Of a stretch of 64,000 nucleotides of DNA, positions 8,447 to 40,491 are shown piece by piece. The translations under genes and the position numbers were made by a program. Under the pieces are notes generated by a model that made no database searches, was not told the DNA's origin, and saw only the letters and a list, made by a program, of their open reading frames with translations. Every line of letters begins with the position of its first letter. Position 1 is the stretch's first letter. The DNA comes from Deltaproteobacteria bacterium (GTDB taxonomy: Bacteria; Desulfobacterota; Desulfomonilia; UBA1062): the NCBI GenBank assembly GCA_017992605.1, contig JAGOOG010000002.1:1-64000 (forward strand), in the 5' to 3' direction.

Positions 8447-8448
8447 AC

Positions 8449-10091: not shown

Positions 10092-12574
10092 CCGCCATGG
10101 AACATGCATTGGCTGGCATGTGGCACAGCCGTGAGAAGCAGAAGTTGCCCTATCTGCTGGTCAATGACGTACGTGGCTATTTTTCCGAAGCGCCTGCCGA
10201 ACTTCAGGTCGATGCCCAATCCATCCCTGTGCATGTCTGCGCCAATGAGATTTCCATGCGCCGCCATACTGAGCACGAGCGTCAGCAGCCGAATCCTTCT
10301 GCCCGCATCATCATCTCACGTCAGCAGCTTCAGCCGGATCATCTGCCGGACCTGCAGGCTCGTTCCAGTATGTCACCCCGCACCGTAACGGGATGTGACA
10401 TTGCCAAGGCACTTGGTGTGAAGAACCCCCGAGCCTTGCTCGACAGGCTTCCCATTCCAGCTTTCTGGAACCTAGCCCCGTATCTGCAGCATCTAGGGAT
10501 TTACAGTCTGGAGCGTGTGGTGCTCGCCTCGTTGCTGAACGACCCCAGCGTATTATCTGCGGGCTGGGAGCCGGATCGGATTCTCGACAAACTTTGGTAC
10601 GAGGATGCGTTGACGCGGGTACGCGAGGTGCTGAGCTCAGTCGATGTGGATGAACGCCTGGCGCTGGAGCAGGAATTCCTGGACGTTGTCCGTACCTGGC
10701 TCGATACACCTCGTTTCGCCCTGGTCGAAGCCGCTGTACTGGAAAGCGATCCTCCGCCCGTTCTACCCATCTGTCTGCTCGCCTCCATCCTTGATGGCTG
10801 GAAGATGCTTAAACCGGGACGGATGCGTGCTTTCCTCGAAGGCAGTGAGTTGGGAGATCTATTTGTTGACGTGCTGAAGGACGAGCAAAGCTTGAATGGG
10901 CTTGCCGAATGGGGCCGTCGAATCACCCTCAAAGACGATGAACCCTGCAAACAGGCACTTAACTACCTGCAGCACGAAGTTTTCCCCAAACATCCCAGCG
11001 CCGTAACGGAGTCCTTGGCGACTGTGGTCAAAGGGGTTGGCGGCAAAGGCTCGGAGCGTCTGCTGAATCAGCTTATCCAAGTCCTGGAGGCCGATGGCGG
11101 CATCCTCGCCCAGGGCCTGACGGTGACACTCCACGCACTGCTAGATGTGGTGGTCAACGGCGAGCGAGCCGACACACTCCCGCTGGAGAAGGCCACCTGC
11201 AAGCTGACTGATGTTTTGGAAAAGCCGGATGCCCCTGAGTGGGAAGATTTGCTCGAAGCTCTGCGTCGACATCAGGCTCGCGAGCAGTATGAGGACCATG
11301 TATCACTGCTGGAGGCGATGGTCACCATTCACCGGCTCACGGGCAAGGCCGAGGCAGCGGTAAAGAATCTTGCCAGTCTGGATTGGAAGGCCTGGCTAAC
11401 CTTAGTGGATTCGGTGTATCTGCCACTCTCAACAATGGCGCTGGAGGCGGACTGGCGGTCCACCCAGTTGCCGGAAAAGGTCAATGTCTTTCGTATCACC
11501 CAGCGGGCCAAAAAGGCCTGCGATGCGATTCGTGTTGCCTGGGCGGATTTCTATGTTCAGCCAAGCTATGGCCTGCCGAAGTGGCTGAATGAGCGTCACT
11601 TCGCGGCTGGTACCAGTAGGCCGTGGTTGAATAGCGATGTCATGGAATTCGCCGTCAAGCCGTTGCTGCAGGATTCAGAGATCAAGCAGGTTTATCTGCT
11701 GGTTTTTGATGGGATGAGTGTGGCCAACTGGACATTGCTTCGTGACCGCTTCCTGATGGTGCAGGGGCGCGAGCTGTTTCGCCCTTACCAATCGCTGGGG
11801 CCTGAGTTCCGTGCCCTCACCTATATTCCCAGCATTACCGAATATTGCCGACAAGCCATTTTTGCAGGAGCACCCCCAGCGGAATTCCGAAGCTGGCCAT
11901 ATGGGACCAGTGAACCTCATCTGCTTGAACGCTGCCTTGCCAATCTGGGGCTTTCGCCATCCTCCTGGTGGGATAAGGATAATAACTATCTCTGTTACAA
12001 CGAGAAAGATGCCAACGCTGACACCCTCAACAGGAAAATGCGCGATCTCGTCGATTCCCCCAGCCGTTTCAAAGCGGTGGTATTCAATCTGCAGGACAGG
12101 CTTCTGCAAAAGGGTATGTCGAGCCTTCAGGAAATCATGCTGGCTTATGTGAAGGAGGTAGCGCTGCCGCACCTGCGAAGAATCTCTTCTCAGGACAAGA
12201 CGGCTGTCGTGATCACGGCTGATCACGGATTTACCTGGTACAATACCCAGTATGTGATAGACGATTTGAAATCAGACAGCGGACCGGGAAGGGATGTCTT
12301 CATAAGTAATCGTTGTCTTGAATATAAAACAAAGAAACGTACTGCAGTTGGTCCAGCAGATGTAAAGCGGATCGAACCATTAGCCACTTATGGACTGCCA
12401 TCCAACCATGATGCCGTCGAGGTGACCATTGGGCACGACAGTTATGGTTGGCCTGGAGCCAAACAGACATCAACAGGCAACCCATACAAGGTTCAGGGCA
12501 ACGACCATGGCGGATTGACTCCGGAAGAAACAGTCATCCCGATTGCGGTGTACATAACACGAGGGGGAAGATAA
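10088..12574 (+). CDS. pglZ: PglZ-domain protein (alkaline phosphatase superfamily) of BREX-like system
   Basis: An 828-residue protein with a C-terminal PglZ domain. The first metal-binding strand is YLLVFDGMS near residue 535-543, the second is VITADHGFTW near 708-717, and near the C terminus is NDHGGLTPEETVIP (about 803-816). These are the Asp/His sites of the alkaline phosphatase fold. PglZ is the one protein common to all BREX and Pgl systems. The start overlaps the hsdS stop (ATGA) and has AAGGAG 7 bp upstream. The N-terminal 500 residues are helical and may bind the other subunits. Placing pglZ between hsdS and hsdM is unusual. Confidence 0.88.
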   Translation: MTAMEHALAGMWHSREKQKLPYLLVNDVRGYFSEAPAELQVDAQSIPVHVCANEISMRRHTEHERQQPNPSARIIISRQQLQPDHLPDLQARSSMSPRTVTGCDIAKALGVKNPRALLDRLPIPAFWNLAPYLQHLGIYSLERVVLASLLNDPSVLSAGWEPDRILDKLWYEDALTRVREVLSSVDVDERLALEQEFLDVVRTWLDTPRFALVEAAVLESDPPPVLPICLLASILDGWKMLKPGRMRAFLEGSELGDLFVDVLKDEQSLNGLAEWGRRITLKDDEPCKQALNYLQHEVFPKHPSAVTESLATVVKGVGGKGSERLLNQLIQVLEADGGILAQGLTVTLHALLDVVVNGERADTLPLEKATCKLTDVLEKPDAPEWEDLLEALRRHQAREQYEDHVSLLEAMVTIHRLTGKAEAAVKNLASLDWKAWLTLVDSVYLPLSTMALEADWRSTQLPEKVNVFRITQRAKKACDAIRVAWADFYVQPSYGLPKWLNERHFAAGTSRPWLNSDVMEFAVKPLLQDSEIKQVYLLVFDGMSVANWTLLRDRFLMVQGRELFRPYQSLGPEFRALTYIPSITEYCRQAIFAGAPPAEFRSWPYGTSEPHLLERCLANLGLSPSSWWDKDNNYLCYNEKDANADTLNRKMRDLVDSPSRFKAVVFNLQDRLLQKGMSSLQEIMLAYVKEVALPHLRRISSQDKTAVVITADHGFTWYNTQYVIDDLKSDSGPGRDVFISNRCLEYKTKKRTAVGPADVKRIEPLATYGLPSNHDAVEVTIGHDSYGWPGAKQTSTGNPYKVQGNDHGGLTPEETVIPIAVYITRGGR

Positions 12575-12577
12575 TTC

Positions 12578-14395
12578 ATGGCAACTCTTGATCAATTCAG
12601 AGAATTTCTGGTCTCAAACCTGGGCTTTAAAGCCCACCAAATCAATGACGGTGACGGTTCTGGCGTTGCCACAACGGTTGAAGGTCTGGAAGAAAGAGCA
12701 GCGTTCCTGGTTTCAACCAGCGTCGGCAACTGTTACGCCGCCTTCAAGCATGAAGGTTCAGCTACACTGAGCGAATCCGAGGCCAACCGATATAAAGCCC
12801 TCAGTATTCTCATGCCAAATGGTCCGGCAGCCTATTGTGTCATCGAGGTGGCTGGCCACTTGCGGATCTATCTCGTAGAAAAAGGGAATGAGATCCACGA
12901 CGAAATGAAGGACTGGGACGACGTTCGCAATGCCGAAGACATGGTGCGCGAATTCAAGTCAGAATTGGTAAGGGGCCTGCAACAATGGGCACAAAAAACA
13001 CTCCATACGGAAAACAGCCTCTCCCGCTTCGTGCAGCTCATGAAGGGTTGCTGGCAGGATATCTGGGACATCGAGAACAAACGCAATGACTGGATCTTCG
13101 ACGAGTTCACACGTTTTCTGTTTATCAAACTCAATGAAGATGCAAAGCCCAGCGGAAGTTTCACAACCGTAAAATTGAAGTCGTATTGCGAACAGAACAA
13201 TCACATGGGCGACAAGGCCGCCCAGAACTTCATCAACAATCTGTTTGATGACCTGAAAGGGCACCATCCCGAAGTATTTACCGATGAGAATGAACGGGTT
13301 CTCAGCAAGGCGGCAACCATTGAACGGGTCATTACCCGTCTTGAAGGGATCAACCTGAAAGATACTCAAGGAGATGTATTGGGCCGTGCCTTCGAAATCA
13401 TGCTGTCCGATACCTTCAAAGGTAAAGACCTGGGGCAGTTCTTTACCCCGCGGGAAATCGTCGCATTCATGCTGGACCTGGCTCGGGACAATCCCAATGG
13501 CCCGGCCTTGGACATCGAAAAAAGCGAGCATTTTCTGGATGCCTGCGCAGGGTCAGGTGGTTTCCTGATCGCCACTTACGAGGACGTGTACAAGCACGCA
13601 CTCGGGGGCGGCGTTGAGCCGCGCAAGAAGGAACAGCTTCTGAAACGCCTCGGCCAGGAAACATTTTTCGCCTGCGAGATAGAAGAGAAAGCGGCTCGTC
13701 TCGGAAAGCTGAACATGATCGTTCACGCAGTAAACGCGCAGAACGCTCAGTGGCTTCATCAGAACTACCTCTACAACGAGGAATACGGGGGGTTGAAGCC
13801 TTCAATCGAATATGAGGTCGACTTCGGCGATGGTAAGAAGAAGCGTCGGATAGGACCAGACAGCATAGACTTGGTGCTGACTAATCCGCCATTCGGTAAG
13901 TCCGTCAAAACCGAGGGAATTCTTCTTGATTATCAATTCGGGCATGAGGTCAAGGTCTTTAAGTCCAAAGGCCGTCCGCCGGAGAAGCGCCCCAAAAACA
14001 GCCAGGACAGCGAAGTCCTTTTCATTGAGCATTATCTTCGTGTGTTGAAGCCTGGGGGCAAACTGCTCATCGTTCTTCCCGACGGTGTGTTGTCGAACGC
14101 CACAGCGAAGCCCGTTCGGGATTATATGCGGGAGCACGCCATCATCAAGGCCGTGATTTCTCTGCCAAGCGAAACTTTCGCGTCAACCGGAACCTCTATT
14201 CCGACCAATGTGGTATATCTGCAGAAGAAGCGCCCGGGAGATGTTCAGGGCGACATCTTCATGGCGCGGGCTGACTACGTCGGCCGCAGAGCCAATGGCG
14301 ATCCGCTCAAGGAAAACGATCTGCCGTTCATTCTTGAAAAATTCTGTGAATGGCAAGCGGGAACGCTCGAACTGCCCGAGGAGGACAAAGAGTGA
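12578..14395 (+). CDS. hsdM: Type I N6-adenine DNA methyltransferase (HsdM-like)
   Basis: A 605-residue gamma-class adenine methylase. Motif X/I region: LGQFFTPREIVAFMLDLA and FLDACAGSGGFLIATYE (around residues 285-330). Motif IV: LVLTNPPFGKSV (NPPF near residue 436). Further blocks LPDGVLSNATAKPVRDYM and PSETFASTGTSIPTNVVYL are typical of HsdM. The first 110 residues are an extra N-terminal domain (VSTSVGNCYAAFKHEG) resembling the nuclease-like or sensor domains sometimes fused to such methylases, but I see no active site. The start has GGGGGAAG upstream and lies 3 bp after pglZ. In BREX-type defence this enzyme would mark self DNA. Confidence 0.92.
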   Translation: MATLDQFREFLVSNLGFKAHQINDGDGSGVATTVEGLEERAAFLVSTSVGNCYAAFKHEGSATLSESEANRYKALSILMPNGPAAYCVIEVAGHLRIYLVEKGNEIHDEMKDWDDVRNAEDMVREFKSELVRGLQQWAQKTLHTENSLSRFVQLMKGCWQDIWDIENKRNDWIFDEFTRFLFIKLNEDAKPSGSFTTVKLKSYCEQNNHMGDKAAQNFINNLFDDLKGHHPEVFTDENERVLSKAATIERVITRLEGINLKDTQGDVLGRAFEIMLSDTFKGKDLGQFFTPREIVAFMLDLARDNPNGPALDIEKSEHFLDACAGSGGFLIATYEDVYKHALGGGVEPRKKEQLLKRLGQETFFACEIEEKAARLGKLNMIVHAVNAQNAQWLHQNYLYNEEYGGLKPSIEYEVDFGDGKKKRRIGPDSIDLVLTNPPFGKSVKTEGILLDYQFGHEVKVFKSKGRPPEKRPKNSQDSEVLFIEHYLRVLKPGGKLLIVLPDGVLSNATAKPVRDYMREHAIIKAVISLPSETFASTGTSIPTNVVYLQKKRPGDVQGDIFMARADYVGRRANGDPLKENDLPFILEKFCEWQAGTLELPEEDKE

Positions 14396-16365
14396 GCGAG
14401 CTGTATATAGGAAAACATCTCGATCCCCATGGGATGCTTGGTGAGTTGTACCGTCATAAGCTTAGTGACCTGATCACTCACACCTTCATTTGCGGTGGCT
14501 CAGGCTCAGGTAAAACGGTAATGGGTAAAGCCATCATTGAGGAAGCTGCCCTTAAGGGGATTCCCTCAATAATCGTGGATCTCAAGGGCGATTTATCTTC
14601 CTTGGCGCTTGCTTTTGGCGAGTTAGCTGCACCCGCCATCGCTCCATGGATTGAAGTTGAAGACAAATCAACGCTTGGCCGTGCCGCCCTGGCTGAAGCC
14701 AATTCCTTCCGGAAGCGCTTATGGGATTGGGGGTTGGCTGAAACCAATGTGCGCGAGTTTGCAAACCTGGTTGCAGTAGAGATCTTTACTCCTCGCAGCG
14801 AACTCGGCCGACGTGTATCTATTCCTCTCATTTCATCACCTCCTCCAGACATCAATATGCTTTTTGAAGAGGACCCTGATACAGCCTCGGTCATGGTGAC
14901 AAGCATGGCGGAAGCACTAGTACGCAGGGTGATCCCGACAGGGCAGAGGGACCGGGAAACGGATTTTGTCACAGCCCTCATTGAGCACGCCTGGCGCACA
15001 GGCATTGATCTGACCGGTGAGGCCGGTCTTGGGCAATTGGTATCGATGATTCTGGAGCCGCCCTTTGCCACCATTGGCGTGCTGGGAATAGATGACCATA
15101 TTCCCGAGAACCGGCGTCAAAAACTCGCACAAGCTGTGAACGGCCAACTCGTTGGTGCTGCAGCCAACTGGGTCCGAGGTGAAGAGATGAGCATCGACAA
15201 GTTGGCGGGAACCAACCGTGTCGATGGCAAAACACAGATCAGCGTAATCAATCTATCGCATATTCCCGACTTCGAAGACCAAAGCTTCGTCGTTGCCCAA
15301 ATCGCCTTTGCCATCAACGCCTGGATGAGGAAACAGGGCAGTGCTCCAGGAGGAAATAGACCCCGCTTATTGTTCTTTCTGGATGAGATCGGCGGTGGTG
15401 GGGGGAAGACTGCTTTCTATCCCACTTACCCCTACATATCTACTTGCAAACCCGCGCTGAATATACTGGTTAAACAAGGACGCGCCTTTGGTGTCGGGTG
15501 CATCCTGGCAACACAGAACCCCGGGGATATTGATTATAAAGGCCTTTCAAACTGTGCCACCTGGATCGTTGGCAAACTGCAAACCAAAAGAGATCGGGAC
15601 AAGGTTCGTGAGGGGCTGACTGATGCAGAATTTTCACCATCCGATTTGGCCAAGAAAATAGCTCGCCCCAAGACGGGCGAGTTCATGCTCATGAACAAGG
15701 AAGGCGATGTCCATTTCATCAAAGAACGCTGGCTCCTGACCTATCACTGTACGCTGAGCCCAGAGCAGCTTCGCCGTTATAAAGCCAAGGTGCTTGCCCC
15801 GTATGAGGGATCACTAAACACAGATATAGCTTTTGATGATTTTGAAGTGACAGCCACCTCAAACGAACAGGAAGAGATTCTATCGCTTTGGAATGATACC
15901 AAGGATGCTATTGGTAAAGCTTGTAACCTGCTTGAAAAGATCCTCAATCTCGACACCGCCTCTGAGAAAGCACGACTTTGGATATCTATCCTACGTGACC
16001 CAGACGGATTCAACCGCCGCCTTCAGGATGCCCAAAGCCAGCTTGCCGAGTATGCTAAAGTGGCTTCCCTCCCTGAGGACACCATAACCCAAGAGCCCAG
16101 CGGTTTGATGAAATTGCTCTCTGAAAAGAAGAGTGCGAGCCAAGGACCATCATTCAACGATTCTCGAGCGATGCCGAGCCCTTCTTCGGCAAAGCCACTG
16201 GGTGATAGTGTGCTTGTTGAGGATGATGGCAGCGTGATCTATAAGGGCCGAAAATTTCAGCTTTACCGGAGATATGCTGGCAAATCAGTAACTTTCATAG
16301 AGCAGAATGGTGAGTTGCTGTTCACAATTGAGGGTAAAGTTTTATCAAAGAAATATATTTTATAG
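14392..16365 (+). CDS. HerA/FtsK-like (DUF853/DUF87-type) ATPase
   Basis: A 657-residue ATPase. Walker A is GGSGSGKT at residues 35-42, followed by IIVDLKGDLSSLAL; Walker B is LLFFLDEIGGGG near residue 325-335; the arginine/sensor region is ILATQNPGDIDYKGLSNC. This is the HerA/DUF853 pattern of hexameric DNA translocases. The start is the GTG at 14392, which overlaps the hsdM stop and has AGGAGG 9 bp upstream. An in-frame codon at 14350 would overlap hsdM by 46 bp without need. It closes the operon and takes the place held by helicases such as BrxHII in type 3 BREX. Confidence 0.85.
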   Translation: MSELYIGKHLDPHGMLGELYRHKLSDLITHTFICGGSGSGKTVMGKAIIEEAALKGIPSIIVDLKGDLSSLALAFGELAAPAIAPWIEVEDKSTLGRAALAEANSFRKRLWDWGLAETNVREFANLVAVEIFTPRSELGRRVSIPLISSPPPDINMLFEEDPDTASVMVTSMAEALVRRVIPTGQRDRETDFVTALIEHAWRTGIDLTGEAGLGQLVSMILEPPFATIGVLGIDDHIPENRRQKLAQAVNGQLVGAAANWVRGEEMSIDKLAGTNRVDGKTQISVINLSHIPDFEDQSFVVAQIAFAINAWMRKQGSAPGGNRPRLLFFLDEIGGGGGKTAFYPTYPYISTCKPALNILVKQGRAFGVGCILATQNPGDIDYKGLSNCATWIVGKLQTKRDRDKVREGLTDAEFSPSDLAKKIARPKTGEFMLMNKEGDVHFIKERWLLTYHCTLSPEQLRRYKAKVLAPYEGSLNTDIAFDDFEVTATSNEQEEILSLWNDTKDAIGKACNLLEKILNLDTASEKARLWISILRDPDGFNRRLQDAQSQLAEYAKVASLPEDTITQEPSGLMKLLSEKKSASQGPSFNDSRAMPSPSSAKPLGDSVLVEDDGSVIYKGRKFQLYRRYAGKSVTFIEQNGELLFTIEGKVLSKKYIL

Positions 16366-16441: not shown

Positions 16442-17239
16442 TCATTCAACCTTTGTCAATCCGTAACAATATTTGCATGCATGCCCACACCTCGGTCTAT
16501 ACCACCCAATGTCCCAGATGGCGTCTCGGCAATGACCAGTCGGTTTCTTCATTTTCTGATAATGTTCAACAACCGAATCATCCTTCTCAGGATGCAATTC
16601 CGCGTACCATTGCATATCAACACAACGCAGTCGATGATAGTTCTTCATTTTACATATAGACATATGCATGCCAAGTGATTGAGCTATGGCATCAACTTTT
16701 TGGGCAAACAAAATCCTTTTATCTCGATTGATCAGGTCCGGTACTATCTGTGAATTACCATAGGGGATGTAGAATGTGAGGATTGACTTTTTTATACCTT
16801 CCATTGCAACCGGTGTTGCAATGGATTCAAATAGCTCCAAAGAAAAGTTGCTCAACCCCTCCCAGGACAAAATTGGAGAGAAGCACCACATTATGCGACG
16901 GGGGTCACCTATATAATCTACTAATTCTTCGACCCTATTCATAAGCAACTTATGGTTTGGAACTCTTGGTTCTAGTCTCGTTCCACCGAGGCCAGTAATT
17001 GTTAGATTCATACAGACCTGATCACACCTTTTCACTACATCGCTTAGTCCCTGATGGTCGAGGAGAGGTCTGAAATCTTTCGTTGAAAGCAAAAGGGTAT
17101 GAACTCTTTCTGGTTCCAATCCTCTCGTAGTCGGAAGCTGACCAGTAAGCGCAGCAAGCAGACGATCGGGATCACAGGCAAGCATGTCAGTTCTTCGGCT
17201 TGCACTGACTACATATTTCCTTCTTGCTTTATCAGCCAT
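16442..17239 (-). CDS. DUF1848 family protein in retron operon
   Basis: The N terminus carries the family signature VSASRRTDMLAC, followed by a TIM-barrel-like series (VCMNLTITGLGG, RRIMWCFSPILSW) and a C-terminal cysteine cluster CRDAIWD then CGHACKYCYG. The Cys spacing suggests an iron-sulfur or zinc site; DUF1848 is often discussed as radical-SAM-like, but no function is established to my knowledge. Its start overlaps the methyltransferase stop by 8 bp, so it is the third gene of the retron operon. It converges on the HerA-like gene with a 76-bp AT-rich gap. A role as retron effector or accessory is inference. Confidence 0.8.
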   Translation of the reverse strand: MADKARRKYVVSASRRTDMLACDPDRLLAALTGQLPTTRGLEPERVHTLLLSTKDFRPLLDHQGLSDVVKRCDQVCMNLTITGLGGTRLEPRVPNHKLLMNRVEELVDYIGDPRRIMWCFSPILSWEGLSNFSLELFESIATPVAMEGIKKSILTFYIPYGNSQIVPDLINRDKRILFAQKVDAIAQSLGMHMSICKMKNYHRLRCVDMQWYAELHPEKDDSVVEHYQKMKKPTGHCRDAIWDIGWYRPRCGHACKYCYGLTKVE

Positions 17240-18125
17240 TGACCTTCGGTTTGCGATACTTCACATATTCACACATTATCTGAGGACGATGACGTATAGG
17301 TCTTTCCAAAGATTCAAGCGCCTTCTGAATAAACTTCTCCTCAGTTTCATATCCGATAAAATGACGACCAAGGGCCTTTGCAGCTCGAGCCGTTGTTCCG
17401 ATACCCATGAATGGATCGAGGACCGTCTCTCCAGGTAAGGAAAAGAGTTGTATCAAACGGCTTGGGACTTCAAGAGGGAAAGGGCATGGATGGTCCGGAT
17501 TGTTCCCTTTGTATGGAGGTGGGACATGCCAAACATTGTTGGCGGTTTCCCGAACAAAGTAATCATCTACCTCAACTCTATATCTCTTTTCCCCAAAACG
17601 TCCAAGATTCTTGGTAAATGGTTTTGATGGTTTTTTCCGAAAGACCAGAAGATATTCTGTCCTGACGTTGGGCGTGAAATTGCCTGGATAGGGCCTCTGT
17701 ATGAAATTCCTCGCCCTTGTTCTTCCACCTGACACCTTATGCCAGACGATCTCAAAGCAGAATGAAAAACCTATCTTCTCAAGTATGCCCACCGCATGAA
17801 AAGGTATGGGGTATGCCTTGCTGCCTTTTGCCATTGTAGCAAGATTTACGATGCAATACCTGCCTGGCCTGAGAACTCGGAAGCATTCACGATGCCACCG
17901 ACCAAGATCATCTAGAAAAGCCTCATAGGGATGATCTTGTCGCCACAGGTAATCATCGCCTCTATTGAAGGCAGTGTAATCAATAAAAGTCCAATAAGGA
18001 GGCCCTGATATAATGAGATCTATGGAATCGACCGGCAACTCATCCATGTAGGAACAATCTTTACAATAAATAACATCCTTCTCTATCATGGGCATTTCAG
18101 GTGCTTTATCTAGAACGAGAGCCAT
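17232..18125 (-). CDS. Beta-class DNA methyltransferase (SGPPY type) in retron operon
   Basis: A 297-residue enzyme. Catalytic motif IV is DLIISGPPYW (residues 36-45). After a variable target region come NPDHPCPFPLEVPSRLI and motif I, VLDPFMGIGTTARAAKALG, then FIGYE. The order IV before I and the (S/T)xPPY(W) form point to an N4-cytosine or N6-adenine methylase without a separate specificity subunit. The ATG lies 6 bp after the reverse transcriptase stop, which implies one transcript. There is no neighbouring restriction endonuclease. It could methylate msDNA, host DNA or phage DNA; the sequence alone does not decide. Confidence 0.9.
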   Translation of the reverse strand: MALVLDKAPEMPMIEKDVIYCKDCSYMDELPVDSIDLIISGPPYWTFIDYTAFNRGDDYLWRQDHPYEAFLDDLGRWHRECFRVLRPGRYCIVNLATMAKGSKAYPIPFHAVGILEKIGFSFCFEIVWHKVSGGRTRARNFIQRPYPGNFTPNVRTEYLLVFRKKPSKPFTKNLGRFGEKRYRVEVDDYFVRETANNVWHVPPPYKGNNPDHPCPFPLEVPSRLIQLFSLPGETVLDPFMGIGTTARAAKALGRHFIGYETEEKFIQKALESLERPIRHRPQIMCEYVKYRKPKVNG

Positions 18126-18131
18126 GTTTCT

Positions 18132-19487
18132 TCATTGAGGTAAACTGTTGAACAATGCCTGACCCAAATCAGGATGAACTGATTTGATGAAGTTGATATG
18201 TCCTGTCAAAGATTCAAGGCTCATTGGCTCGCCTTTCCATGTAGCCTCCTTGCCCTGGTTAACATGGTGCAGCGCAGCTCGTATCCTCCTCCGGATAACA
18301 CGCGGAACAGAAACTCTATCATTTACTGTGAGTCCGGTAACTTCTTGACGGGCTCCCCTTCTATGTATACGGAGTTTCGGAAGTGCCAGAGCAAATCCTT
18401 CCTCTTCAACGATTTTTCTTATGAGTGCAATGTATTTAGTTATTGATTCAGGGCCACTTATTGTAAGGTCATCAGCATACCGGGAATAGTCAGCCCCAAT
18501 TGTATTCGATAAACCTGAGAGGCGATAATCGAGTCGAATGCATGCAATATTAGCAAGCATGGGACTCGTCGGGGCACCCTGAGGAAGACGGCCATTGAAA
18601 GAGGAAAGGGCTGTCAGGAAACTCGCTTCCTCATTTTTATATCCGAATGATCTGTATATGCCAAATACTCGTGCAGCACTTATTGTGGGGAAAAAATCTT
18701 TGATGTCCAGGTTAACAACTACAGCCTTCCCGACATGAGGCTTAGCATTACTCACAATGGAATGAGCCCTTCTGAAGCCATGACAAGAATCGTGCAATCG
18801 TACATCTGACGTCAACTTTTCAAGGATGGCTTTCTGCGCAAGTTTCAGGGCTGGTTTGGGTGCCTCTATCTTTCTTTTTCCACCAGATCTCTTGGGGATC
18901 TCAAAGGTGTCATAGAGGTCATCGAAAGTATTGTTCCGATACCAATGGCCCAGAACAAACTGCGCAGTATTCTCCTTGAGCTCCTTTAGTATAGAAAACC
19001 TCTCTTTTAACAAATCCCATGGAGATATCTTTTGAGCGACCCAAGTTTGCCCTGCTCTGTCATTATCTGCCAGTAATTCTTGATCCCGCTTGGTTTGTTT
19101 CTCCTGTATCCTTTTATAGTGCTTCGTTTGCGAATAGAGGCCTTTACATACCTGGCCAAGGGAGTCCTTCCTTCTTGACCTCCGTAGAACATATCCAGTG
19201 AGTGTAGCATCTTCTTTCCTAAGAAGTTGTTCATATGATGAAGACCGACTTAAAAGCCCCTTCACGTAGAGAGGAAGGACTATTGATGCTGCCTTTCCGC
19301 CTAATTTTCTGACAATCTCCCGTGAGCACATATTGCGGAGTTTACGATCCCAATGCTTGAGCCCTTTTTTTAAGATGGGAAGTGCTTCTTCAACGGGGAG
19401 TTTGGACACCCTTTTAACAGCAGAATATCGTTTCTCAGCAACAGCTCCAAACATATCTGACGCATTGTTGTTTGCTTTCTTTGTCAC
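18132..19487 (-). CDS. Retron-type reverse transcriptase with N-terminal extension
   Basis: The RT core covers roughly residues 190-440. Motifs: IPKRSGGKRKIEAP (196-209), NAKPH at 247-251 (the retron NAxxH motif), LDIKDFF (260-266), GRLPQGAPTSP (299-309), catalytic YADD (337-340) and EVTGL at 382-386 (the retron VTG motif that recognises the msr). There is no intron maturase or HNH domain. The first 150 or so residues are an extension; residues 30-80 (EEALPILKKGLKHWDRKLR and on) look like HEAT-type helical repeats, and 100-145 is very basic. The start is GTG with CCGGAG upstream. The product should copy the adjacent msd into msDNA. Confidence 0.95.
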   Translation of the reverse strand: MTKKANNNASDMFGAVAEKRYSAVKRVSKLPVEEALPILKKGLKHWDRKLRNMCSREIVRKLGGKAASIVLPLYVKGLLSRSSSYEQLLRKEDATLTGYVLRRSRRKDSLGQVCKGLYSQTKHYKRIQEKQTKRDQELLADNDRAGQTWVAQKISPWDLLKERFSILKELKENTAQFVLGHWYRNNTFDDLYDTFEIPKRSGGKRKIEAPKPALKLAQKAILEKLTSDVRLHDSCHGFRRAHSIVSNAKPHVGKAVVVNLDIKDFFPTISAARVFGIYRSFGYKNEEASFLTALSSFNGRLPQGAPTSPMLANIACIRLDYRLSGLSNTIGADYSRYADDLTISGPESITKYIALIRKIVEEEGFALALPKLRIHRRGARQEVTGLTVNDRVSVPRVIRRRIRAALHHVNQGKEATWKGEPMSLESLTGHINFIKSVHPDLGQALFNSLPQ

Positions 19488-19512
19488 TTGTATCTCCGGA
19501 GGAGAAATAGAT

Positions 19513-19684
19513 AGAAGGACAGTCGGTCACCTTACTAAGCATTACTATGAATCGACACTGCCACATGAATCACCATGTGGCCGCAGGCCTGTGGTGACTC
19601 ATGCGGCATTGGCAGTATGTTCTGTAGATGCGGCAACCACGGCGAAACGCCGCGACGATCTAAGCATTTACCGACTGCCCTTCT
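19513..19684 (-). ncRNA. Retron msr-msd RNA
   Basis: Reading the minus strand, a1 at 19684-19670 pairs with a2 at 19527-19513 over 15 bp with one G-U wobble. After a five-base bulge, CUUA pairs with UAAG and is followed at once by a G (19660), the same context as the branch guanosine of retron Ec86 (CUUA-G). The msr then forms a 7-bp hairpin with a UUU loop (19654-19638). The msd forms a 16-bp stem, arms 19607-19592 and 19575-19560 with G-U pairs, capped by GGCC/GGCC around UGC. The unit ends 25 bp before the RT start. The structure is by hand folding. Confidence 0.9.
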
Positions 19685-19704: not shown

Positions 19705-19710
19705 ATTATA
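19705..19710 (-). promoter_or_regulatory. Probable -10 box of retron promoter
   Basis: A perfect TATAAT on the minus strand would place the transcript start about 14 bases before a1, as expected for a retron RNA. A matching -35 hexamer at 16-18 bp is poor. A TTTGTC/GACAAA inverted repeat lies just upstream (about 19722-19740) and could be an operator. Confidence 0.45.
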
Positions 19711-20093
19711 TGAAATATCAATTTGTCTTTATGGACAAACATCATATTTTGCGACATGCACTTGTCGCGATGACCTGATATCGCCCACAATATGTATTAT
19801 GATTGGTTTCTTATTTTAGCCGCTTCTTCATTGAATCGAAAAGGGCCAAGGAAATGATATATGGTAGGATACATACTAATCAGAATCAGTGATGTATAAT
19901 ATGGCAATGAATATTGTCGAGATTATTGCACGCAACTATGGATGATCTGGATCAGGATCCCCTCAGTCTCAGCTTACCGAGTGGCATCGTGATAAGGAGG
20001 GAGTAATTAAGGTCAAAGAAGACGAGTCTTGGTTTGAATGAGTTGATAAGGTATTATTATTGATTAATAGTTTACTGGTCATGAGGTGATGCT
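19711..20093. other. Divergent intergenic region between retron and metallopeptidase operon
   Basis: This AT-rich 380-bp region holds the divergent promoters of modules B and C. Visible short dyads are GCGACA/TGTCGC near 19751-19768 and AAGAC-GA-GTCTT near 20019-20030. No gene is supported. No terminator with a T-run was seen. Confidence 0.5.
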
Positions 20094-21233
20094 ATGACTG
20101 GACAATTGATGCTGTTTGATCAGGTCCCAACTCCAGAGGACGTTCTCTCAAAAAATCTGGAAATGAAACTTCATGGAAGGATTCTCTTCATCCTGAAGAA
20201 TCGGAATCAACCAGGGGCAGGTGAACTTCTCGAGATGATGGAAGACGATTTTGGTTGGAAAGTAAGGAGTGTATTTCTAACTGTTATTAAAGGTCTTCGC
20301 TCAGATCCGCACATCCCTGAATATCTTAGGGCATATGCCACGAACACTCTCAGTGACGATGAGGTGGAACAGGCTCTGCGGGGTAATGCCAAACCAAGTC
20401 AGGTGTTCAAAAGCACGGTAGATGACTTGTTCCGTAAAAGTATCCTGTACAGAAACTCAGATATGTACCAAGAGGCAATCAGTTTCATAGCGAGGTTCAA
20501 GGAATATGCCCCGTATAACAATATGCTGGTGAAAATCCAGAACCCGAGCTGTGGTTTCTATGCCACTGAGAAAGACTGGTTCAAAAGGTTCGGAAGGATT
20601 ATCAAAGAGGACGCCCAGCCAATGCTCATACTGGCTCCTAAGCATCCAGTGCTCCTGGTCTATGATCTTGATTCAACTGAAGGACCCTCTTTACCAGACA
20701 AGCTCGAACTCTTTGCGAAAGCATCTGGGGACTGGGATCCAGGTGTGTTCAGTCTCACCTTGGACAATGTCGAGAGAGATAAGATATTGGTCCAATTCAA
20801 AGAGCTCTCCTCTACACATGGTGGATTTGCTACCACAAGGCTCCGTGATGGAAACAACAAAATGAGGATCGTCATACATCAGGGCCTTGATGATAGGAGC
20901 AAATATGCAGTTCTCTGTCATGAACTGGCCCACATATACCTTGGTCACCTAGGCAGCGATGAGGATGGTTGGTGGCCTTACCGTATCAATCTGGACAAGA
21001 GATCAATCGAGATAGAGGCGGAAGCAACTGCTTACATTGTGGCCACACGTGTTGGCTTGCTGACCTCTTCTCACGCATACATTTCCACATATCTGAAAGA
21101 TTCAAAAGTTCCAGAAGCAGTGAGCATTGAGTTGATATCAAAGGTTGCTGGAAGGATTGAAGAAATGGGGGGGCGTAGACTACCTGCAAGAAAAAGCTCA
21201 AAGAGGATATTACATGGCCCAGATAACAGGTAG
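20094..21233 (+). CDS. ArdC/ImmA-like zinc metallopeptidase
   Basis: A 379-residue protein. The centre (AYNNMLVKIQNPS-like YAPYNNMLVKIQNP, then FYATEKDWFKRFGRIIKEDAQP) matches the ssDNA-binding N-terminal domain of ArdC antirestriction proteins. The C-terminal part has a zincin motif CHELAHIYLGH (HExxH at 276-280) and a downstream acidic helix IEIEAEATAYIVA, as in ImmA/IrrE peptidases. The start has GAGGTGATGCT before it. It heads an operon with a giant GHKL ATPase and an SNF2 helicase. In other systems such peptidases cleave repressors or phage proteins; here that is inference. It is transcribed away from the retron. Confidence 0.8.
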   Translation: MTGQLMLFDQVPTPEDVLSKNLEMKLHGRILFILKNRNQPGAGELLEMMEDDFGWKVRSVFLTVIKGLRSDPHIPEYLRAYATNTLSDDEVEQALRGNAKPSQVFKSTVDDLFRKSILYRNSDMYQEAISFIARFKEYAPYNNMLVKIQNPSCGFYATEKDWFKRFGRIIKEDAQPMLILAPKHPVLLVYDLDSTEGPSLPDKLELFAKASGDWDPGVFSLTLDNVERDKILVQFKELSSTHGGFATTRLRDGNNKMRIVIHQGLDDRSKYAVLCHELAHIYLGHLGSDEDGWWPYRINLDKRSIEIEAEATAYIVATRVGLLTSSHAYISTYLKDSKVPEAVSIELISKVAGRIEEMGGRRLPARKSSKRILHGPDNR

Positions 21234-21299
21234 ACCAGATTATGCGCTCAAACAGATTCTTAGGTGCAGCTTGGATTGATATAATTATATCTGAATAAT

Positions 21300-24200
21300 A
21301 TGGAAGATTATAAAATTCCATCCGATAAAATCGATCGTAGTCCAAATTCTCGTATAGTTCGTAGTGCCATCGATGAAGTCAAGGCTATTCGGACGCTCCT
21401 AGAAGACAGCTACAAAGATTTCGGAGGCGGGAGAACTTTACTACGCGAGCTTGTACAGAACGCTGATGATGCAGAGGCAGAACGACTTGTTTTTGCCATT
21501 GTCGAAAATGGATTGCCGGATGCACAGAACAGCCTGCTCCGAGGTCCTGCCTTGCTCGTGGCAAACACCGGGCCTTTCCCAGCCAGGGATCGAGGTGCCC
21601 TCCACCAGGCTCTGGGAGGTTCAAAGGCTGAGGATGCTGACAAAGTTGGCAGGTTCGGCATCGGTCTTAAAAGCGTGTTCCACATATGTGAAGCAATTGT
21701 CTACATAGGTGCTGATAAAGATACTGTACGTCCTGGTGCCCTGAATCCATGGGCAGGAACGGGCGCTTCTGGTGATGCTGATCCTCTGCATCCAGATTGG
21801 GACAGTGTAAGCGATGCTGACATGAAGTGTCTCCTGGATGTTGCAAATAAATTGTTAGAAAAGTTCAGAGATGGATTGCTTCTTTGGGTTCCTTTGCGCC
21901 AAGCTTCCCATTTGGATCGAGCACAAGGCCAACAGTATGGTCTCGGATCAGCCTGCCCAAGTCCGCATGAAATCGCTGCTTGGTTTAGGCGGTCAACATC
22001 ACTTGCTCTTCTGCTCGCGCAGTGTGGGCATGTTGTATCGATTGAGGCTTACCTTGCACCAGATATTTATTCGCTGGAGGGACGTAAACGTCTGGTCCGT
22101 GTTGCTCGGCCAGGATTTCAAAGCCTTGGATGGATAGGCCGATATGAAAATGATCTTGATGAAGTGGAGAGGACCTTCGAAGGCCGAATAGAGGATGACA
22201 ACAAAGGCTGGTCAGCCTATGGAATTGAAGTTCTCGGTCTCGACAGCTTGAGGCGGCTTCGCATCGAACCAGAGTGGCCAAAGGAACCCCATTGGCAGAA
22301 CGGCAAATGTGACTGGATACCCCGCAAAGCACTTTCACACGCTGCAATCACGGTTCTCCAACCTTCAGAAGCTTCTTCTGACTTATGTGGTGCATATTTG
22401 CGGTGGGCAGTGTTTCTCCCACTAAATGATGACCCGATTCCCCAGAAAAGCTCTCTTGTAGAGTCAGTGGGTAACTGTGGAGAACCTGGTACCTGGGATA
22501 TTGTGATGCATGGATATTTCTGGCCGTCTCATGACCGGAGATCCATACCAGGTGTAACAGGCAACGATACAAGTGAAGGGGATGCGCGGATCCGATGGAA
22601 CAGAGCAGTTCGTGACGAAATGCTCCTCCCCCTCTTGCCGAAAGCACTGGCACATGCTGTGAAGGGAATCCCTGAAGCAGCTGCACGATCGTTGCTGCGG
22701 GCAATTACTTGTTCTCAAATAGTTCGTGGACATCTCTCTGAGATTACACGTCTGAACATACTCCTTCCAAAGATTGCTGAGAATGGGGTGCAATGGGAGG
22801 TACATTCTACAAACGAGTCACAAGTTCTCTCCATACCAGCGTGGAATGATGCACCAGACAGTGTTCGTGAGCAATTCGTGTCAAAGGTCAGAACGCTTAC
22901 GAACGGCTTCCTATTTATTGATGGAGATGCTCCAAGAATAGGCGGGGATGAGGGAGAATGGCCCCATGAGTCGATCCGATGCATATTGGAATGCATCTCC
23001 TCTAAGGAATTCCGAACATGTATGGCGCTCTCATGGTTAGAAATATTGCTCACGAAACTGTTGAGTTCCCGAGAGGACACATCGAATGATCGGGCATCTG
23101 TCGTTGCGACATGGTTTGCTGAAAGAATCGGTGAAGGGATCCTCTCAACGTCTAAACTTGGGACCTCCCAAGAAGAGCGAGAGGACATGCGTGCCGCATG
23201 GCTGAGGGTTTTCGCCAAGCTCCCCAAGAACTGGTTAGTGCTGTCACCAGTGGATGCGCAGAATGCAGTTGTTGAGCTTGCTAAAGAGGGCATCATTGGA
23301 CCCGGGCTGCTGACAATTCCCTTTGGTCGCTCTACAGGTCAAGAGTGGACACCAACGCCGGATCCAGAGAGGCTCGACAGTGCTCTCCAAAAACTCGGGA
23401 ATTATCTCAGAGATGATAGAGATTCGTCACAGAGGTTATATCAATCTCGGCTGTTACTGGCAGAGACCCTTCTCTCTGTCCGACAAGACACTCCCTTAAG
23501 TGAAGAGTTGGTTTCTCTGCCGCTACTGCGTGCAAAGAGGATGCCTGACGACAAGGACGAAGCATGGTCCATGGATGAATTGTACCGTCGAGCTCAGCAG
23601 ATTCAGGTGTTTGCAAGGCCGACTTTGGAAGATAATCCTGTGGCCTATGAGATACCATATGATCCGAAACAAGCTGTGCTTGACCTTGCAAAAGCACTTG
23701 ACGAAGATGTGTGGCTTGTCGACAGTTCTCTGGCCTCGATTGCAAATTTAACATTACCAACGTCAGAAGCTCTGGCAAAAGCTGTGCTGGTAAAGACGGT
23801 TATCAAATCAAAGTCTTCTGATCGCAAAGATCTTGTTCAACGACTGGCGAAATCAGAGGATGTTGTTTTGCCGGTCATCCATCAAGCGATAACATCTCTG
23901 CTTACAGGACGAGTACCGAAACAGGGTTATGAGAAGGACCTCTACTATGTCCGTAGTCAAGACTACAACAGGTTAGATAACACCTTGGTACTAAGGGTAC
24001 TCCTCAAGCTTCTTGGAAGACCTTGGCGTGAGGTTGATGCCGGATTAGTTGAACCCATTCGGCACTCCCTTGTTGATGCCCTCCATATCAAGGCCGTTGA
24101 TCCCGGAATACTCCATGAGCTCCTCCAGAAGTGTATCGATGAGTCGGTTGGATGGACTGATCTCGAAACAGGTGAAGTGATCCAGCTCCTCCGTCGACTG

Positions 24201-27200
24201 CACAGTGCTACGCCACCATATAGAGATCGTTGGCGACAGATGCCCCTCCATAGGGGTGTTGGTGGGAGCAGGGGGAGTTTCAACGAGCATGCCCTCAAGG
24301 CCGTCGGCGGATTGGCATTACCCCGTGAGCTTGAGTCTGAGATCCGCTTACTTGAGCCCGACAAAGAAGTTGAAGATCTCTATCGGGACGTTCCTTCGCT
24401 AGATCCTGAGGGAGTTCTTCATGCAATGCTTGTGAGTCAGCGGCCGTATCGTTTTGCCAAAGATATTGTAAAATCTCTCCGCCCGAGCACTGATGTCCAC
24501 CTACCTCGAAATACCGATATAGGTGCTCTTCTGAAGAGTGCAAAGTGGCTTCCCTTGAAAGGATCTGAATCAGGTGTTTCACCGAATACAGTGCTGCTGC
24601 TCTCAGAAGATCTTCAGATTGTTGTGTCTCCCCTTGCAAGGGCTGGCGCTCTAGGCAGTTATCGATTAAGTGAGGATGTTGACCCTGAGGTCTGGTCATT
24701 CTCAGAAGATATTATCCGAAAGATTCTTGGGGAGCCAGGAGTCTCACGTCAGATACATAATCTAGCCAAGGCTCTTGACACCACTCTGGCCCCAGATGTC
24801 GATGATGGGGCATACATCCTGCTTCCAGACCCCGAGCTGATCACTGCCTCTCTGATTTCAGAAGTAATGCAATCCTCTCTTGCAGATGCCCATGCGGGAT
24901 GGGCACTCGTGCGTTCTGCAATCAATGCTGCCGGTATTGACCATCTCAAACTGTCAGACACTTCATCCTCTCAGACGCAGAGTGCGGTTGTCAGTCTTGC
25001 ACGATCACTTTGTGGCCCAATGCCACCTGAGCGTCAAATCTCTTCTCTCATGACACTCGCTGCCAGCCGACCACCAAAAGACTCCTCTGCTGGTATCGTG
25101 TTCAGTGCATTCATGGAAGCCTTTGTACGTACCCCAAGATTCTATGAACAGATCTTACCTAACATCGAACTGCCGACGCAGGATGGGCAATGGCACCATA
25201 CACGGGATATTGCACGATCTTCTTCAGGTGTTTCAAGACGACATCGCCTTCTTCAGGACCTTCGTCTTACCCTTGGACTTGACAAGGACGAACCAATACA
25301 TGGGGAGTCCTCAACAACCAGTGTCGGATCTGGAACTGTGGACACTCTGAACAAATACTTCGATCCCTGGGCAGACAGAATACCCGAGGCTGCTGTGGGG
25401 GCTTTCATAGGATTGCTCGGCAATGGATTACGCGAAGCCATATTGGAGCTTGCTCAAGATTGGATTAGCGAAGATGTCAGTGTGGAGAGGATGCGCCAAG
25501 AACTCTATGGAGAAGATAAACAGGATCCCTGTGCAGATGTTCGAGTCTCCGTGCTGAATCGTATAGCACAAGGCCAGAAGGTGGAAGCACTTAATCTCCT
25601 TGACGAGCGTGTAGTAATGGATGCCGGTTTGGATAGCAACACGATTTTTGCCGTAGACCCTATACGTCGTTCATCAAATCTAGGTGTGTTCTGGGAGATA
25701 ACTCTCCGGGATGTTAATCCCAGCAGTAAGACAGCACACGAACTCATTGCGCTTCTCGGAGGGACTGTAGAGTGGTGGGCCGTTAAGGTGCTTCGGATAG
25801 ATATTCAAGCTGTTCGCTCTTGGTGGTCACGGTGGGGGACTGGGTCCCAGGCTCAGGTTGGACCAGTACAGGCCTCCATCCTTGCACATTTGCCATTGAC
25901 ACTACACCAGCTTGATGTGAGCGAATGCGCGTCACTGCAGGAAGCACTGCGAAACGCCCAACGAGCACAACGCAGGAGAGAGCAAGCACCAGCTGCACAG
26001 ATAAGGGAAGCAAATGAGATCGAGAGAAAGGTCCTCGACCAGCTAGCTTCGCTGATCCGGGACAACCAGGAGCACCAGCGATTTATCTGGATGCGTGTCC
26101 AGTCACTCATAAAACGGTACGGTTATAGAGAAGACAGCATCCTGCTCGAGTTGGCACAGAATGCAGATGATGCCCTTTCACAGTCAGCTGAAATGGAAAG
26201 AAGTGAACTGCCAGATGCTCCCCGACGACTGATTATTCGCACCTCTCAGCAAAGCGATGTGCCAACAATCGATGTTATCCACTATGGTCGGCCCATCAAC
26301 GAAACAGGTGGCGCTGCTTTTCCTGAGGGACAAACAAGACAGTGGGATCAGGACCTCTATTTCATGATGCTCCTGAACCTCAGCGGAAAACCTGGAGAGG
26401 TATCGGGACAGAGTGCCGTTGCATCTACGACAGGACGATTCGGGCTTGGTTTTAAATCAGTGCATCTTGTCTCAGAGAAGCCATCAGTTGTCAGTGGTTT
26501 TCTGGCTTTCTCAATTGCTGGTGGATTGCTACCCATTGAGCAACCGACTCCACAAGATCCAGATTTAGTTCCGGTGGAGGGTCACCAGGCAACGAGGATC
26601 AGGCTTCCTCTACGAAGTGATGTTGATGTACCTGACCTGATTGACAAGATGTTCAAAAGATTTTCTTATGCTCGGGTCTTGCTTCCAGCTTTTGCTAGAG
26701 AGATTCGTGAAATCATAGTCGAAGGTGGTCCATCCGCAGGAGTCAGTTCATTTGATGGAAAGAATATCCCTGGTGCTCCCGGTTGGACGATTGCTAGTAA
26801 TACAGTAGGGATACCAGGAAAAGGCCAGTGGCGTCTTCTGCGGTTCCGCCCTGCAGATGTTGGAATCGGACGAGGAACTGAAGCACTTGTCGTGGGGATC
26901 AGGGATGGAGAACCTCAAAACTTCCCATCAGAGATCCCATTTCTCTGGAATGTAGCACCTACTAGTGAAGGCTGGGGTTGTGGGTACGCTGTAAACGGAC
27001 CGTTCAAGCTTGATCCAGGAAGAACCCATGTTTCTCTTGATGACCCTTCTACACTCAGCGTGGTGAACCTGCTTGGGGAGTCCCTTGGCCGCGGTCTGAT
27101 TGAACTGCATGACACGCTTATGAAAAGATCAGCCACTCTCCCTGACGGATTGCCCTCCCAGGAAAATGTCGAAGGATTCATCTCTTCGCTTTGGAAGGTA

Positions 27201-28994: not shown

Positions 28995-31681
28995 TGTCTC
29001 AGTTCAAGAAAGATGCTGTTGTAGTTCACTTCAAATTCGGACGTGGACGAGTACGTATGGATGATGGTGCGAGCGTTCTCGTCAGATTCGAGCACGGACT
29101 TGAGGAATGCCTCCCCAGTGACCTTGAGTTGATTGAAAGCCTCGGAGAACGAGCAATAGAGGCGAAGTTTGACCCGGCGCTCAATGTGGTCACACGTATC
29201 CTGAGCAACTGTATCCTGTCAGTGAACGATGCCTGGGGGGTGTTTTCCCGCTCAAGAATAAATCTTCTTCCCCATCAGCTGTGGGTCTGCAAGCGAGTTT
29301 TGGAGTCATGGCCAACACGATGGATAGTGGCTGACGATGTGGGGCTTGGTAAGACTATCGAGGCAGGACTAATCCTGACACCATTGCTTACCTCCGGTCG
29401 CGTAAAACGCCTTCTGATTCTTGCCCCAGCAAGTCTGGTGGAACAGTGGCAGGTACGTCTCAGGGAAATGTTTGACATCCGGATTCCAATATACGCACCG
29501 AACATTGATACGGAGAACTCTGATTATTGGAACACTCACGACAAGGTTGTTGCTTCAGCACACACAGTGAGATTGGATACTGGTGGTAGATGGGATCGAC
29601 TCATTGATTCAAAGCCATGGGACATGGTGCTTGTTGATGAAGCTCATCACTTGAATGTGGATGAGGAACGTGGACGCACCCTATCTTTTGAACTGGTGGA
29701 AAACCTCCAGGTGCGTGGGCGTGTTTACTCCATGGTGTTCTTTACGGGAACGCCCCACCGTGGAAAAGACTATGGATTCCTACATTTGTTAAAGCTGCTT
29801 CGCCCAGATGACTTTGACCCAATGGAGCCTTTGGAAACACAGGTGCGAAAGCTGCGAACAGTAATGATTCGAAACAACAAGAGTCGGGTTACTGACATGA
29901 AGGGTAGGCCTATATTCACACCTGTACGCCAGCATCGTGAGACATACTCCTACACACCGGAGGAGGCGAGATTCTATGCCAAGCTTACGGAGTTCATTGC
30001 TACAGGTAAGGCATATGCGGCCGGCCTCGGCCAGCAACAACGACGGATGGCAATTCTGGTGCTGATAACAATGCAGAAGCTGGCCTCGAGCTCTGTTGCG
30101 GCCGTGCGACGTGCGATTGCAAAACGCCTGGAGCGGCTCAAAAAAGCAAAAGAAAAAATGGATATCTCAGCCCCAGACTTGGCACGCATTAACGCGCTGC
30201 TTGCTGAGGATGACCCCGCGAACCTTGATGAGCTTTCCCGCCTGGAGGAGCGAGTAGCAGAAAACCTCGGGGATGTCATTCACCTCAACCCGAATGAGAT
30301 CCCTGCTCTTGAGGAATTACTTGATGCCGCGGATGAAGTTGTCCGTGAGACCAAGATTCAGCGTATCCTCGAGGTGGTGGATGAAGCATTCTCCGATCGC
30401 TCAGTCCTTTTCTTCACAGAGTACAAGGCAACACAAGCTTTACTCATGAGCGCACTCAATTCGAAATATGGTGACGGTTGTGTGACATTCATTAATGGGG
30501 ACGGATTCATCGAGGAAGTCAAAAAGGCTAATGGGGATGTTCACACACAAAAAGAAGACCGACGAAGAGCAGCGGCCCATTTCAATCGTGGAGACGTCCG
30601 CTTCCTTGTCTCCACAGAGGCAGCAGGCGAGGGAGTGGATCTTCAGGAGAGCTGCAGCTCGTTAATTCACGTTGACCTACCTTGGAACCCAATGAGACTG
30701 CACCAGCGGGTAGGTCGTCTAAGCCGCTACGGACAGACTAAACCAGTCGATGTCATCACGGTCCGTAATCCAGAAACCGTGGAAAGCCGAATCTGGGAAT
30801 GTCTTGATCAGAAACTCGATCGAATCACCCTTGCATTCCAGGGGGCAATGGATGATCCCGAAGACATGCGCCAACTTGTGATAGGAATGGCATCACCAAG
30901 GATGTTTACCAATATTTTTGCCGATGCCGACCCGGAGCTTCGAGGCCAGAGGCTTGAGCAGTGGTTTGATTCCAAGACAGCAACATTCGGCGGAAACGAT
31001 GCAGTTGGAGTCGTTCGAAACCTGATCGGCAATGTAGCACGATTCGACTTTGGTGAGGTTGCTGATCAGATACCCATGGTTGACCTTCACGACTTGATCC
31101 CCTTCTTTAAGGCGATCTTTGCTGTCCTTGGCAAGCGACCTAATCAGGTTGACGATGTGCGCCTGAATTTTAAGACGCCTCAACAATGGACGAGCGACTT
31201 TACAATAGCCGAACGATACGACCTCCTCTTTGCCCGCGAACCTCGACCCAAAGAAGGTGAGGACATCGCAGGTGTGGGTCTGAAAATTGTTGACCTGGCC
31301 ATTCAATCCGCCATCAATCTTCGTGACATGCTTGGATTTGTGGGTGAATTGGATGGTCCCATAGTTGTCTTTGCTTTACGTGATCGTATAACCGGTTCAG
31401 AGGGTGCAGTTCGAACAGTGATAGTCGGGGTACAGAAGTGTAAAGACAATGCTTGGAAAATGCTTAAGGATTGGGAGCTGATCAAGATTCTTAATCCACT
31501 TGCAGATAAACCGAGGAGCCAGGTGCTTGGGGTTGAGGCGCAAATGGTGCAAGAGATCACACATTTGCTCAACGAGGCCCAACATCACCTCGAATCGCAT
31601 ATGGAGGAACTAGATTTACCTTTCCGACTGCCAGCAATAGATAGTCTTGCCTGCTTGTTAACAGATGAGCATGGAGCATAA
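28994..31681 (+). CDS. RapA/HepA-like SNF2 helicase
   Basis: An 895-residue Snf2-family ATPase. It begins with a small beta domain (VVVHFKFGRGRVRMDDG) like the N-terminal region of RapA-type proteins. Helicase motifs: I, DDVGLGKTIEAG (114-125); Ia, LILAPASLVEQW; II, VLVDEAHH (near 212-219); III, FFTGTPHRG; V/VI, STEAAGEGVDLQ and HQRVGRLSRYGQ. A C-terminal accessory region of about 270 residues follows. The start has GGAGGAATA upstream and overlaps the stop of the GHKL gene. Such translocases in defence islands usually pump on duplex DNA for a partner nuclease, but no nuclease domain was seen in this operon. Confidence 0.92.
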   Translation: MSQFKKDAVVVHFKFGRGRVRMDDGASVLVRFEHGLEECLPSDLELIESLGERAIEAKFDPALNVVTRILSNCILSVNDAWGVFSRSRINLLPHQLWVCKRVLESWPTRWIVADDVGLGKTIEAGLILTPLLTSGRVKRLLILAPASLVEQWQVRLREMFDIRIPIYAPNIDTENSDYWNTHDKVVASAHTVRLDTGGRWDRLIDSKPWDMVLVDEAHHLNVDEERGRTLSFELVENLQVRGRVYSMVFFTGTPHRGKDYGFLHLLKLLRPDDFDPMEPLETQVRKLRTVMIRNNKSRVTDMKGRPIFTPVRQHRETYSYTPEEARFYAKLTEFIATGKAYAAGLGQQQRRMAILVLITMQKLASSSVAAVRRAIAKRLERLKKAKEKMDISAPDLARINALLAEDDPANLDELSRLEERVAENLGDVIHLNPNEIPALEELLDAADEVVRETKIQRILEVVDEAFSDRSVLFFTEYKATQALLMSALNSKYGDGCVTFINGDGFIEEVKKANGDVHTQKEDRRRAAAHFNRGDVRFLVSTEAAGEGVDLQESCSSLIHVDLPWNPMRLHQRVGRLSRYGQTKPVDVITVRNPETVESRIWECLDQKLDRITLAFQGAMDDPEDMRQLVIGMASPRMFTNIFADADPELRGQRLEQWFDSKTATFGGNDAVGVVRNLIGNVARFDFGEVADQIPMVDLHDLIPFFKAIFAVLGKRPNQVDDVRLNFKTPQQWTSDFTIAERYDLLFAREPRPKEGEDIAGVGLKIVDLAIQSAINLRDMLGFVGELDGPIVVFALRDRITGSEGAVRTVIVGVQKCKDNAWKMLKDWELIKILNPLADKPRSQVLGVEAQMVQEITHLLNEAQHHLESHMEELDLPFRLPAIDSLACLLTDEHGA

Positions 31682-40416: not shown

Positions 40417-40491
40417 TGGTGGAGGTGGAGGGATTTGAACCCTCGACCCTCGCATTGCGAACGCGATGCTCTCCCACTGAGCTACACCCCC
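40417..40491 (-). tRNA. tRNA-Ala (anticodon CGC)
   Basis: On the minus strand, the acceptor arm GGGGGTG pairs with CACCTCC and is followed by an encoded ACCA end. The D arm is GCTC/GAGC. The anticodon stem TCGCG/TGCGA (one G-U pair) closes the loop TTCGCAA with anticodon CGC. The T arm is GAGGG-TTCGAAT-CCCTC. All arms fold without mismatch. The 3' end faces the accessory block, the usual orientation for integration at a tRNA. Confidence 0.97.

Follow-up and report, generated by a model that had tools for sequence, protein, structure and literature searches.

A retron RNA and reverse transcriptase in an apparent operon with methyltransferase-like and DUF1848 genes

The msr-msd RNA and its reverse transcriptase

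The window analyzed here, a 64,000-nt stretch of a Deltaproteobacteria bacterium contig (JAGOOG010000002.1, positions 1 to 64,000), holds on its minus strand an msr-msd RNA (19513-19684), recognized by sequence reading and folding, followed by genes encoding a reverse transcriptase (RT; 18132-19487), a beta-class N6/N4 DNA methyltransferase-like protein (17232-18125), and a diverged DUF1848 protein (16442-17239). The end of the a2 arm of the RNA lies 25 nt from the RT gene, the gap between the RT and methyltransferase genes is 6 nt, and the methyltransferase and DUF1848 genes overlap by 8 bp. No Rfam family covers the msr-msd region, the sole Rfam match in the window being one tRNA.

Read on the minus strand, the elements follow in the order a1, TTAG with the predicted branch guanosine G19660, msr hairpin, msd hairpin, a2, and RT gene. 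The a1 arm, AGAAGGGCAGTCGGT (19670-19684), forms the 5′ end of msr and pairs with the a2 arm, ACCGACTGTCCTTCT (19513-19527), in a stem of 14 Watson-Crick pairs and one G-U pair, which was identified by reading and folding the sequence and by scoring shuffled stems. An earlier note on this DNA had proposed this 15-bp duplex with the same bounds, which proved right to the base. When helices were scored under retron-like constraints, with a2 required to end shortly before the RT, the a1/a2 helix reached 36.5, beyond the maximum of 31.5 among 300 shuffles. Likewise, the minimum free energy (MFE) of 191 nt of the RNA was -82.5 kcal/mol, compared with -53.8 ± 4.2 kcal/mol for dinucleotide shuffles (z = -6.9; 0 of 200).

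The predicted branch guanosine (19660), which our reading of the sequence places where the earlier note had put it, sits in the context CTTA-G-ATC, not at the end of a1 but 9 nt inside it. This context is shared with homologues (AGAT/CAGA) and with the known TAGC and CAGA contexts (PMC6868368). Its description as Ec86-like was only half right: CTTAG is common to Retron-Eco1 (Ec86) and the window and fits the common TAGC context, but the next base differs (TAGC in Ec86, TAGA here), and the A that follows the branch G here is the one seen in the CAGA context of Retron-Eco2 (PMC6868368). The two hairpins were also recovered as proposed. The msr hairpin (19638-19654), CGCGGCG-TTT-CGCCGTG, has 7 bp and a UUU loop closed by a G-C pair. 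In the msd hairpin (19560-19607), read from the sequence and the fold, GCCGCATGAGTCACCA (19607-19592) pairs with TGGTGATTCATGTGGC (19575-19560) over 16 bp, or 17 bp in the MFE structure, with GGCC-TGC-GGCC at the apex. A direct repeat, AATGCTTAG, occurs on the minus strand at 19660-19668, ending at the branch G, and at 19535-19543, between the msd hairpin and a2.

Several possible control elements flank the RNA. Downstream, a predicted hairpin, TCTCC-TCC-GGAGA (19493-19505, minus strand), encloses the RT Shine-Dalgarno sequence and may affect RT translation. Upstream, TATAAT (19705-19710, minus strand), about 20 nt before a1, could be a -10 element, but it has no good -35 element, and a promoter consensus scan was not significant. 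A dyad on the minus strand, TTTGTC-N6-GACAAA (19722-19739), covers the expected -35 region, and a second, GCGACA-N6-TGTCGC, was read at 19751-19768. Both have TGTC/GACA half-sites and lie upstream of the presumed RNA promoter, where they may serve as operator sites.

The RT gene (18132-19487, minus strand), characterized through motifs, profiles, structure searches, and a tree, begins with GTG, has GGAG 6 nt upstream, and encodes 451 amino acids. Its core (residues 186 to 451) contains NAKPH (region X), YADD, and VTG (region Y), which include the retron NAxxH and VTG motifs reported earlier. The best matches of the RT are retron RTs in PADLOC and NCBIfam; the nearest solved RTs by sequence in the PDB are Ec86, the closest at 150 bits, and Ec67, while the nearest folds are those of Eco2, Ec86, Eco7, and Ec83. 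With RT profiles, solved structures, motifs, the stem, the branch-G context, and hairpins in the right order beside the RT all in agreement, the retron arrangement described in the earlier note is upheld, and it is well supported at the sequence level that this locus is a genuine bacterial retron.

The earlier note mentioned neither the two partner genes nor the N-terminal extension of the RT (residues 1 to 185; 18933-19487, minus strand). Domain searches of this extension returned no match in Pfam or the PDB, no relative of it was present in 117 RT loci, and a structure model of low-to-middling confidence renders it as consecutive helices. The Ec86 RT has no such extension; in Ec86, as here, the partner is a separate gene rather than a fusion. 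The Ec86 partner is a nucleoside deoxyribosyltransferase-like effector. The all-helical stretch of some 185 extra residues could itself be the effector, the downstream genes being regulators or unrelated cargo, and PADLOC lists RTs with fused Toprim, TIR, and protease effectors. However, the effectors in those profiles are enzymes and lie C-terminal of the RT, while the stretch found here resembles HEAT-type helices without a catalytic signature. We regard this reading as rather doubtful, although the N-terminal helices are the main alternative to DUF1848 as effector.

Recurrence of the RNA and placement of the RT

RT homologues were collected from same-phylum genomes, plasmids, GTDB contigs, and viral contigs. 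A stem resembling a1/a2 occupied the corresponding position in 26 of the 50 nonredundant RT loci, where about one was expected; to be counted, a2 had to lie no more than 45 nt from an RT start and the helix had to score above all 40 shuffles of its own sequence. Since the letters of the stem differ between homologue groups, pairing has been retained despite sequence change. The earlier note had proposed looking for compensatory changes among homologues in both a1/a2 and the msd stem. For a1/a2, stems of unrelated sequence do recur at the same position, while no close or alignable relative of the msd hairpin was found among the gathered homologues, between which alignment was possible for just the msr hairpin and the positions of the stem.

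The msr hairpin supplied covariation. Thirteen distinct loci were compared, and in most of them an AGAT/CAGA-like branch context is followed by a triloop hairpin with a closing G-C pair. In an ungapped alignment of the hairpin from these loci, all 91 of 91 cells were paired, with two-sided changes at six of the seven pairs; this percentage is inflated because the best triloop hairpin was chosen for each locus and loci without a good one were omitted. The covariation score was 0.861, compared with 0.273 for shuffled alignments and at most 0.18 when the partners were slid. The most similar RNA, that of locus L043, has the same order as in the window (a1, TTAG, a 7-bp triloop hairpin, and AGTAATG just before a2), and the two msd stems have unrelated sequences.

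We asked whether the RT belongs to an ordinary type XIII retron whose usual partners were lost or moved, leaving the downstream genes as bystanders. The ARM-repeat and WHSWIM proteins form the type XIII partner set, and the retron types named here follow PADLOC. RT_XIII is indeed the top PADLOC profile (323.8 bits), a long N-terminal region precedes the RT core both here and in the type XIII loci L024, L002, and L001, and the msr hairpin core of L024, whose type XIII RT scores 584 bits and is preceded by a SWIM-like C-C-C-H motif, is identical to that of the window (GGCG-UUU-CGCC). True type XIII RTs, however, score 525 to 584 bits along the profile, while the window RT matches it in the core only. 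The same holds for a Priestia RT that belongs to a non-XIII retron, has HNH and ATPase genes as neighbors, and reaches 326 bits, as much as the window RT. Moreover, in a tree of 49 rows the type XIII RTs form a clade with support of 95/90, and the window RT branches deeply and alone outside it. The RT sits in a tight operon with other genes; its only other near neighbor is a divergent gene for an M78 peptidase, and no gene with a SWIM motif, WHSWIM or otherwise, adjoins it. On tree placement, profile coverage, and the missing WHSWIM/ARM-repeat partners, we reject type XIII membership, and an ordinary type XIII origin with displaced partners is quite unlikely.

A survey of the same class found a comparable RT, a remote one, in 1 of 41 other genomes. 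We take the RT to belong to an isolated retron lineage. In a separate locus from Eubacteriaceae (L036:1300-1600), a type XIII-like RT gene starts right where a SWIM-motif gene ends; no RNA would fit between the two, so the msr-msd of that retron must lie elsewhere.

Partner genes and their setting

The methyltransferase-like protein (17232-18125, minus strand), assigned by profiles, homologue comparison, and PDB searches, is nearest in the PDB to 2zie. Its SAM-binding motif, DPFMGIGT, is intact. Motif IV reads GPPY, compared with SPPY in 19 of 19 homologues, and does not conform to the (D/N/S)PP(Y/F/W) of active methyltransferases; the first residue of this motif is held to be catalytic in the family. 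We considered that the enzyme might nonetheless be active and keep the msDNA methylated as a safe state, so that loss of methylation would free DUF1848. The intact SAM-binding motif, the GANTC- and CATG-type sites contained in the msd hairpin, and the importance of RT-DNA methylation in other retrons (PMC12548924) are compatible with such a role, but given the change at the motif IV position an active methylase in this role is unlikely. The same change, and the singleton status of the RT in its class, might instead point to a relic, an RNA and RT persisting in a defence island after the system has died. Against this stand three tightly spaced open frames, a good ribosome-binding site, an intact YADD motif, and a very stable RNA, and we consider a dead system very unlikely.

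The third gene (16442-17239, minus strand) was assigned by profiles, homologue comparison, and a structure model. Its product passes the PF08902 gathering cutoff (91.3 bits versus 30.5) and ends in CGHACKYC, a CX3CX2C motif common to close relatives, while cysteines of a preceding CS...QR...CGC stretch are lost. The model is a partial alpha/beta barrel of low-to-middling confidence, for which the top PDB fold match, among other barrels, is the radical SAM maturase SkfB (TM 0.40). Regarding membership in the radical SAM proteins, CX3CX2C is present but C-terminal, and the barrel match reaches only TM 0.40. The protein is also of the same Pfam family as the PADLOC profile RTasDUF1848 (candidate DRT-associated DUF1848). 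We rejected it as a specific member of that group, since solitary DUF1848 proteins of its relatives score 153 to 169 bits and the window protein 94 bits.

A second operon of RT, methyltransferase, and DUF1848 genes was not found among the RT, methyltransferase, and DUF1848 loci, plasmids, and viral contigs searched; no RT lay beside any methyltransferase locus examined, and none adjoined relatives of DUF1848. Partners farther away could be missed at loci from whole genomes, which span about 1.5 kb to either side. Having been found once in everything searched, the association of the three genes rests on one genome. Among the papers searched, none dealt with a retron-methyltransferase operon, DUF1848, or WHSWIM.

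The operon has 44% GC in a region of roughly 44 to 59% GC, compared with about 60% in the adjacent backbone, and it lies between a BREX/MADS-like cluster at 4268-16365 (plus strand) and the genes at 20094-31681. The first of these comprises BrxC-like, type I specificity/mad5-like, PglZ-like, MAD2-like methyltransferase, and HerA-like genes, a mixed BREX/MADS defence system. The second includes the M78 peptidase, a 2,564-residue sacsin-like ATPase with TmtA matches, and a DrmD helicase (958 bits), giving BREX/DISARM-like surroundings; the M78 peptidase also has a weak match to the final part of a profile for type III-A RT fusions. The setting is a defence island, which is consistent with an anti-phage role but is no proof of one. 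Near the GC shift are a tRNA gene (40420-40491), which may mark the island edge, and a tyrosine recombinase gene (43175-44059), which lies in backbone-like GC.

A proposed mechanism

In a retron, the RT copies an RNA template from its own locus into a small branched molecule of RNA and DNA joined by a 2′-5′ bond (msDNA), most often to protect the cell from viruses. In known retrons, the RT primes on the branch G and copies the msd, and the complex of RT and msDNA restrains an effector until infection (PMC6868368; PMC12548924). By analogy, a single transcript, perhaps beginning 14 nt before a1, would carry the msr-msd, the RT gene, and the two downstream genes. The RNA would fold on the a1/a2 stem, the C-terminal region of the RT would bind the triloop msr hairpin, and, with the 2′-OH of G19660 as primer, the RT would reverse transcribe the msd into a hairpin DNA of some 70 to 90 nt, the ends of which are estimates. 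As other retrons do, the particle of RT and msDNA would then restrain a toxic partner, releasing it once a phage had changed or destroyed the particle. Such a partner is most likely encoded in the operon. We put the probability that this is a retron making msDNA and working with at least one operon partner at about 0.75. Of its parts, msDNA synthesis at this locus is almost certain by analogy with studied retrons, and a role in defence is probable.

The division of labor between the two partners is a more tentative matter. The methyltransferase-like protein would probably sense by binding DNA and not act as a methylase, and the DUF1848 protein, of iron-sulfur type, is the likeliest effector; the scheme in which DUF1848 is the effector and the methyltransferase reads the state of DNA falls somewhat short of even odds. 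Both proteins may dock on the helices at the N terminus of the RT. In at least some retrons, methylation of the RT-DNA is a reported trigger, which makes a methylase-like partner plausible, and in Retron-Sda1 the usual retron effector is replaced by another system, which gives a precedent for new partners of a retron RT (PMC12548924). The fullest form of the scheme, a new retron type in which RT-msDNA controls both a catalytically silent methyltransferase, reading msDNA or phage DNA, and an iron-sulfur, radical-SAM-like DUF1848 effector, each docked on the RT helices, is possible but doubtful.

The locus adds one more member to the retrons, and its operon is a new combination of partners, so far known from one genome. 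Its predicted msDNA is concrete and comes from a lone branch in the tree of retron RTs, and the suggested partner proteins are not listed in the retron profiles searched. A retron with its own methylase-like protein, altered in its active site, would allow direct study of methylation sensing, and if DUF1848 is the effector, iron-sulfur or radical chemistry could enter retron defence.

The nearest RTs from the same phylum, those of L006, L007, and L043, match the window RT at 41 to 44% in the core. They differ from it in a shorter, unrelated N terminus and in their nucleosidase-like partner. At each of these loci (L006:725-2646, L007:964-3172, and L043:1141-3188), an MTA/SAH-nucleosidase-like gene, whose product is hydrophobic over an N-terminal stretch, directly follows the retron RT gene. 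A candidate a1/a2 stem is also present at each locus, and the grouping of the three RTs is supported at 94/87. These loci may represent retrons with a nucleosidase effector.
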